Below are positions 36,878-38,475 of a stretch of DNA of 64,000 nt, one piece after another. This DNA comes from Candidatus Jettenia caeni (GTDB lineage Bacteria; Planctomycetota; Brocadiia; Brocadiales; Brocadiaceae). The notes beneath the pieces are model-generated. The model was not told the origin of the DNA, did not search any database, and worked only from the letters and a program-made list of their open reading frames with translations. The stretch's first letter is position 1, and the number at the start of each line of letters is the position of its first letter. The stretch covers positions 868,001-932,000 of the forward strand of contig BAFH01000004.1 in the NCBI GenBank assembly GCA_000296795.1, written 5' to 3'. The position numbers and the translations under genes were made by a program.

Positions 36878-36951
36878 GCCCCTATAGCTCAACTGAATAG
36901 AGCGTTGGCCTCCGGAGCCAAAGGTTGCAGGTTTGAATCCTGCTGGGGGCG
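36878..36951 (+). tRNA. tRNA-Arg (anticodon CCG)
   Basis: A 74-nt cloverleaf. The acceptor stem gcccctA pairs with tgggggc (G-U at the sixth pair), and the D arm is gctc...gagc. The anticodon stem ttggc/gccaa encloses ctccgga, so the anticodon is CCG (codon CGG, Arg). The T arm is gcagg-tttgaat-cctgc, and the discriminator base is G. The CCA end is not encoded. Confidence 0.95.
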
Positions 36952-36963
36952 CTTGTATTTCAC

Positions 36964-37465: not shown

Positions 37466-37726
37466 TCAATTTTCTAATAGTCCTTTACTGATAAAGAATT
37501 TTAATGTTCGCTGAACATCTCCTGCTATATCATATTCTCTTGTCATAGAAAAGTTATCCCTTACAGCTTGTTCTATATCTTCTATACTATGCTCACCATC
37601 ACAAAGTTCCCAAATGAATTTTGCCGTAGCATTAAGGACATGGAATACCCGCTCCCTGGCGCTATAAAGAAGCGTTTCACGTCCTATGTCTTGTACAAAA
37701 ATACCCTGTTTTCGGATAGGCATCAT
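37466..37726 (-). CDS. PqqD-like peptide-binding protein (RiPP recognition element)
   Basis: An 86-residue protein of the PqqD superfamily. Diagnostic features: an N-terminal beta hairpin (IFVQDIGRETLLYSARERVFHVLNATAKFIWELCDG), with the N-A-T-A-x-x-I-W-E-L-C-D-G phrase that ends the winged-helix start. A conserved helix IEDIEQAVRDNF follows, and a C-terminal helix DVQRTLKFFISKGLLEN. PqqD proteins hold the leader of a ribosomal peptide and present it to a modifying enzyme. The start could be either of two adjacent ATGs (37726, 37723); a ribosome site aaggaat lies about 20 bp upstream. It is 176 bp downstream of the small peptide gene on the same strand. No radical SAM or other modifying enzyme is in the window. 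Confidence 0.82.
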   Translation of the reverse strand: MMPIRKQGIFVQDIGRETLLYSARERVFHVLNATAKFIWELCDGEHSIEDIEQAVRDNFSMTREYDIAGDVQRTLKFFISKGLLEN

Positions 37727-37902
37727 CTTATCATTATCATCATTCCTTATATCCTTTTTATTAATGATAACCAGACCTCCAATAAGGGCAATGCGATATT
37801 GTTAACCAATCCATAAAAATTTCGTTGTTCCTCCTCTCCGTAATTTCTTATACTTTTCGTATAATACAGTAATACCATCAAATAAAGATAAGTGAAAAAC
37901 CT

Positions 37903-38052
37903 CTATGATGCTAAAACTTCCATGTGCATGTTCTGATGCATCGGTCGTTTTGATCTCATTGGTCTGTGACGGACTAACTCTTCAAGAATCTCTTCATCGG
38001 TATAGGTAACCACACTGGGTAACTCATATTCGGGTAATTTTTTTTCTTCCAT
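37903..38052 (-). CDS. Short peptide, candidate RiPP precursor
   Basis: A 49-residue peptide. The ATG at 38052 follows aaagga by 8 bp, a better start than the longer frame from 38112. Residues 1-26 are an acidic leader with PSVVTYTDEEILEEL. A similar T-Y-T/S-D-E-E-I-L-E-E-L phrase is known to me from putative RiPP precursors near PqqD proteins. Residues 27-49 form a basic, Met/His-rich tail with an R-P-M phrase repeated twice (VRHRPMRSKRPMHQN...) and no Cys. Such a leader/core contrast fits a precursor. Family membership is by motif memory, not search, so it could also be an unrelated small protein. Confidence 0.6.
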   Translation of the reverse strand: MEEKKLPEYELPSVVTYTDEEILEELVRHRPMRSKRPMHQNMHMEVLAS

Positions 38053-38475
38053 TTTGTATATCCTTTCCGTAAATAGGAATTTTTTCTGTTTAAACTTTCC
38101 GGTCTTATTCAAGTATTTTATCGATTTTAGGAAATCATCTTTATCAAAATATGTACCAGTTAACAGTCAAATTTTGAAATGTTTATTTTTAGAAAATTAT
38201 TTACATCATAAGTACCATTAAATAATAGATTTAAATAGTTTTTAGCAGGAAAAATAAACTATGAAATTCAGGCAATAGCAGAATAAAATTATCAAACAAA
38301 ACAATAAAAAGTGTGACGTGACACCAGGGAGTGCCATTGTAAGGTGCGACATGGCACACTATATGGCACAATACAGAGGAAGCAAGATATGAGCAGAGGA
38401 GTAAATAGTGATAGCACAATATTGTATTTAAGCACAAATAACCGAAATTGCGATCTGTGGTTCCTGATTCTACCG

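Follow-up and report, generated by a model that had tools for sequence, protein, structure and literature searches.

PqqD-type domains serve to find the gene clusters of ribosomally synthesised, modified peptides (RiPPs). What, then, does a PqqD protein do when only a small peptide gene stands beside it? We examined such a pair in a 64,000-nucleotide stretch of the Candidatus Jettenia caeni genome (the window; the assembly comprises 4.09 Mb in 4 contigs), using sequence and structure comparisons with related genomes.

The peptide-PqqD pair and its surroundings

On the minus strand, a gene for a 49-residue peptide (positions 37,903 to 38,052) is followed, after a gap of 176 bp, by a gene for an 86-residue PqqD protein, that is, a RiPP recognition element (RRE; 37,466 to 37,726). 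A ribosome-binding site, AAAGGA (38,061 to 38,066, minus strand), lies 8 nt before the ATG of the peptide. The peptide, MEEKKLPEYELPSVVTYTDEEILEELVRHRPMRSKRPMHQNMHMEVLAS, consists of a conserved leader (residues 1 to 26; 37,975 to 38,052, minus strand) and a basic tail of 23 residues (37,906 to 37,974, minus strand), and RPM occurs twice in it. Residues 9 to 12 of the leader, YELP (38,017 to 38,028, minus strand), form the YxxP motif described for lasso-type leaders (PMC10368454). The peptide matches no family of Pfam or NCBIfam. Orthologues were found at 96% identity in two more Jettenia genomes, and two genomes from a second genus encode orthologues at ~60% identity; this recurrence in relatives indicates that the 49-residue reading frame is no chance ORF. 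The order and strand of the two genes were identical in all five of these pair genomes, three from Ca. Jettenia, the window's genus (G000 to G002), and two from one other genus (G005 and G012).

No homologues or remnants of the kinase, S24/S26 protease, NTP_transf_5 protein or C25 peptidase that accompany related precursors (see below) were found around the pair in the five genomes. On reading through the surrounding ORFs, no radical SAM protein was recognised and no lasso B2 protease/cyclase was seen. A tRNA-Arg (CCG) at 36,878 to 36,952 separates the pair from a DegT aminotransferase gene. In Jettenia G001 (L058:6103-6718), the DegT aminotransferase and PqqD genes flank a HicA/HicB-like toxin-antitoxin pair, identified by eye, which the window lacks.

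The PqqD protein matched PF05402 with 43.3 bits (cut-off 23.4; E 4.7e-11). Its structure model (pLDDT 78.8) showed three strands and three helices, and the best structural matches were lasso B1 proteins with bound leader (TbiB1, 5v1v/5v1u; 6jx3) and the PqqD protein 5sxy. The TM scores were 0.73 to 0.78 (~0.78 for lasso B1) with Foldseek E values of 1e-3 to 2e-2, a good agreement in shape that is statistically not strong. The model thus predicts a winged-helix fold resembling that of leader-binding RREs. The preliminary description of the locus, which had reported the two genes, their spacing, the ribosome site and the RPM repeat, was confirmed in these points. Its proposal of a RiPP-type leader with a PqqD partner was supported, as was the lack of a local modifying enzyme as far as the families named above and the ORFs around the pair show.

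A leader family with GPAHTGY-type cores in anammox bacteria

The leader, residues 1 to 26, recurs in 19 of 59 related genomes with up to 8 copies each, amounting to over 40 additional copies. Aligning 20 leader relatives showed Y9, P12, Y17, E24 and L26 to be invariant, and the window leader has all five. Among 52 leader copies read, which include one on a stray contig of G032, 46 are followed by a canonical core starting with G-[PTA]-[AV]. Thr5 is present in 45, and none of the 46 has Asp or Glu at core positions 7 to 9. Counted from the core Gly, Y9 and P12 stand at -18 and -15, which is near the -17/-14 spacing reported for the YxxPxL leaders of lasso peptides (PMC10368454). The stray contig (G032:C87, L057) comes from a Brocadia MAG, measures 4.4 kb and is nearly identical to Jettenia G001; it is probably a binning error, and G032 was left out of the count of pair genomes.

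Named organisms that share this peptide family are, among others, Ca. Jettenia ecosi, Ca. Brocadia and Ca. Kuenenia. A scan of 84,980 species genomes with one short pattern, which is not exhaustive, returned mostly anammox Planctomycetota and a single Anaerolineales-labelled contig, which may have been misbinned. As far as searched, the family is confined to anammox genomes, apart from a few stray contigs. No description of the canonical precursors was found in the open-licence literature or in the family libraries searched. The window peptide does not show the canonical core pattern G-[PTA]-A-x-T: its tail starts with VRHRPM, and a ghost of the core can be read only in a shifted frame.

The canonical cassette

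Near the GPAHTGY precursors, Pfam domains usually revealed a PqqD protein, an HprK-like kinase, an S24/S26 protease, an NTP_transf_5 protein and a PorU-related C25 peptidase, the last two in many canonical loci. The gene order in G028, for example, is precursor, PqqD, kinase and S24/S26. The kinase retains the GKTTL loop and an SDE motif and gave weak matches to solved HPr kinases; against HprK_rel_A it scored 60 bits, far under the cut-off of 200. Its assignment is sequence-based, a structure model of low confidence (pLDDT 50.8) having been set aside. The co-occurrence with an HPr-kinase-like gene that had been suggested for the window pair holds for its canonical relatives and not for the pair itself: the kinase was present in 11 of 13 genomes with canonical cores, as opposed to none of the five with window-type tails (Fisher p 0.0025, on related genomes, so that the pattern may represent one or two losses). 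The two canonical genomes with no close kinase, G004 and G017, are possibly incomplete assemblies.

By analogy with HPr-kinase homologues in known systems, we infer that the HprK-like kinase may phosphorylate Thr5 of the canonical core. The missing acid at core positions 7 to 9 argues against a lasso ring in the canonical product; an Asn-synthetase-type cyclase was also absent from the 25 Pfam families listed for the cassette surroundings. Large secreted proteins with a common C-terminus like MHGPEKVRVRS...KRQKRK, possibly a sorting signal, were seen beside canonical precursors and near the PorU-like C25 peptidase (L066, L067, L070 and L071).

Gene loss and a probable old frameshift in the pair-only genomes

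Orthologues of the cassette kinase and of the C25 peptidase were undetected in all five pair genomes, while PqqD was retained in all of them. In G000, kinase relatives were limited to a ScmC-like protein of 270 residues. Only a distant S24/S26 relative (~35% identity) was found in G000 to G002, which in G000 belongs to a radical SAM cassette, and none was found in G005 and G012. Relatives of NTP_transf_5 do occur in the pair genomes, and we do not claim a loss of this gene.

The tails that follow the leader in the five genomes read VRHRPMRSKRPMHQNMHMEVLAS, VRYSTTKIDRVVPQKISREVLAF, VQHCPAKQDRVKAEQKISREALILSYL or close variants. In the reading frame one base off beyond Leu26, SPSQT appears in the window and GTALPC in G012, and both look like ghosts of the canonical core. 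Scored on canonical cores against random sequence, their chance probabilities were ~0.006 and ~0.007, respectively, values that are not independent. The corresponding ghosts in G005 (0.28) and G002 (0.05) are decayed. These core ghosts suggest that, most likely, a single old deletion of one G in the Leu-Gly junction converted the core to a tail without resemblance to it, a reading drawn from a short sequence. In the window, the putative scar is TTA GTC (37,972 to 37,977, minus strand), where the ancestor presumably read Leu-Gly with GGT. A programmed frameshift reaching the old core was ruled out, because in G002 and G005 the fourth codon of the shifted frame is a stop. From the PqqD tree, it was not apparent that the pair-only state arose once. 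We consider it very probable that the window pair was derived from the canonical operon.

Selection on the leader, PqqD and the tail

Is the pair then the functionless, decaying rest of a RiPP operon that was lost? The loss of the kinase and the C25 peptidase, the destroyed core and the weakly conserved tail would all fit this explanation. However, PqqD of G000 and G001 differed by 12 synonymous and 0 non-synonymous substitutions (p 2e-9), and dN/dS between PqqD of G005 and G012 was ~0.12. For the leader between genera, dN/dS was ~0.1 or below, or the synonymous sites were too saturated to estimate it (p 5e-5 to 9e-8). The leader peptide and PqqD also remained intact and adjacent in all five genomes, and the loss of the peptide with retention of PqqD, which would have spoken against a precursor, did not occur. 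Such strong purifying selection indicates that the leader and PqqD are maintained for a function, and we regard mere decay as improbable.

The tail gave weaker signals. Its frame is open and ends at about the same point in each of the five genomes, with a weak conservation of the type ..QK/N..xEVLA, so the tail may matter. It could have become a new functional peptide, for example one binding metal or nucleic acids, with the leader and PqqD as its chaperone; the open frame, a dN/dS of ~0.15 to 0.22 within Jettenia and the basic, Met/His-rich composition there would suit this role. However, the Met/His richness is a feature of the Jettenia tails and is absent from those of G005 and G012, and the tests of selection on the tail were weak (p 0.03 to 0.16). 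We therefore hold a new functional tail to be very improbable.

RiPP-like cassettes elsewhere in the pair genomes

The pair might still belong to a working RiPP system in which the tail is modified in trans by the enzymes of another cassette, with PqqD as the carrier. All five pair genomes encode one or more further RiPP-like cassettes, and the enzymes of these might act in trans (for G001, this was derived from orthologous matches). G000 carries a separate cassette (G000:C3:512935-516365; L110:10936-14366) of a ScmC/HprK-like protein, its own PqqD, a radical SAM/SPASM protein and an S26-like protein. It lies on a contig other than that of the pair, next to exopolysaccharide export genes, and includes an apparent 54-residue Cys-rich precursor with CCC and with YKKP, which fits YxxPxI and so recalls the leader of the pair. 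A different, lasso-like cassette in G002, G005, G012 and G024 encodes HprK-like, radical SAM and lasso-B2-type proteins, with PqqD seen except in G024 and NTP_transf_5 except in G002 (following the cassette in G005 and G012). Its presence in three pair genomes together with PqqD would also favour modification in trans. In the precursor of this cassette, repeated EPKLT is followed by a terminal stretch rich in Gly and Phe (L142:5810-10885; also L141, L143 and L144).

On the other hand, each of these cassettes comes with a PqqD of its own and, close by, an apparent precursor (the precursor being seen in G012 and G002). Close relatives of the G000 radical SAM protein were found only in G001, G002, where the gene is split, and G016; they are absent from G005 and G012. 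The radical SAM cassette was thus ruled out as a constant partner. As no cassette is common to all five pair genomes, a constant enzyme acting in trans is unsupported, and a genome-specific one is possible. YcaO gave no match in the 12 genomes tested. The proposal in the preliminary description that the tail is a core modified at His, Arg, Met or Lys was not supported, given the Jettenia-only Met/His richness, the frameshift-like origin of the tail and the lack of a shared cassette. We judge modification in trans to be unlikely, though deserving of attention.

A proposed retained leader-PqqD interaction

We favour the reading that the leader and PqqD of the window were kept as binding partners and act with no modification of a core, and we give it about an even chance. 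The full version, for example in Ca. Brocadia, runs from the precursor over PqqD and the HprK-like kinase to the S24/S26 protease and would be an anammox-specific RiPP operon. PqqD would grip the YxxP leader and, by analogy with known systems, present the GPAHTGY core with its nearly invariant Thr5 to the kinase. Neither the kinase nor the C25 peptidase is found in Jettenia and the second genus with the pair, and a one-base deletion after the leader most likely scrambled the core. In the window lineage, PqqD may then bind the leader strand, and the complex rather than a modified core would do the work, for example as a small adaptor or regulator. Given the purifying selection on both partners, their interaction is the function most likely to have been retained. 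The comparisons show the homology, the gene loss and the selection, and from these we deduce the binding and the absence of core modification. We would go further only tentatively, to an exaptation in which, after the enzyme loss and the core frameshift, leader and recognition element became a stand-alone interaction pair used beyond the making of modified peptides.

If this is true, a leader-PqqD pair can outlive its enzymes and its core, PqqD domains can have non-RiPP roles, and genome mining that relies on them can be led astray. In the canonical relatives, anammox bacteria have a precursor family with multiple copies, a nearly invariant Thr5 and an HprK-like kinase; this family is directly testable biochemically, while the bacteria themselves are hard to manipulate.

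Comparison with known systems

The PqqD proteins of SynChlorMet and PQQ biosynthesis (TIGR04248 and TIGR03859) have the PqqD fold in common with the window protein. However, the window PqqD matched these profiles weakly (26.7 and 30.5 bits), far under the cut-offs of 100 and 46, and its locus has no radical SAM partner. The HPr-rel-A system (TIGR04352/TIGR04353 in NCBIfam) likewise pairs an HprK-related kinase with a PqqD-family chaperone, as the canonical anammox relatives do. The window PqqD, in contrast, gave no match to TIGR04353, and no such kinase lies near the window pair.

The closest parallels were found in phosphorylated lasso systems, in which an HPr-kinase homologue phosphorylates a precursor Ser and a nucleotidyltransferase can follow (PMC8498205); BsfK, for instance, phosphorylates Ser3, aided by a B1 protein (PMC10368454). 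Paeninodin, pseudomycoidin and BsfA likewise have a YxxP leader, to which a separate B1 protein of the PqqD type binds (PMC8498205, PMC10368454). An HPr-kinase homologue and the nucleotidyltransferase family occur both there and in the canonical anammox loci, whereas the B2 protease of the lasso systems contrasts with the S24/S26 and C25 peptidases of the anammox loci. Gly1 is present in the canonical relatives, none of whose 46 cores has an acid at positions 7 to 9. The window peptide has the YxxP leader motif and no Gly1-type core with Asp or Glu at positions 7 to 9, and its locus differs from the phosphorylated lasso systems in having no kinase, canonical core or listed enzyme nearby. Taken together, the canonical system is a lasso-like RiPP operon whose product is probably phosphorylated, and the window pair is very probably its surviving front end.
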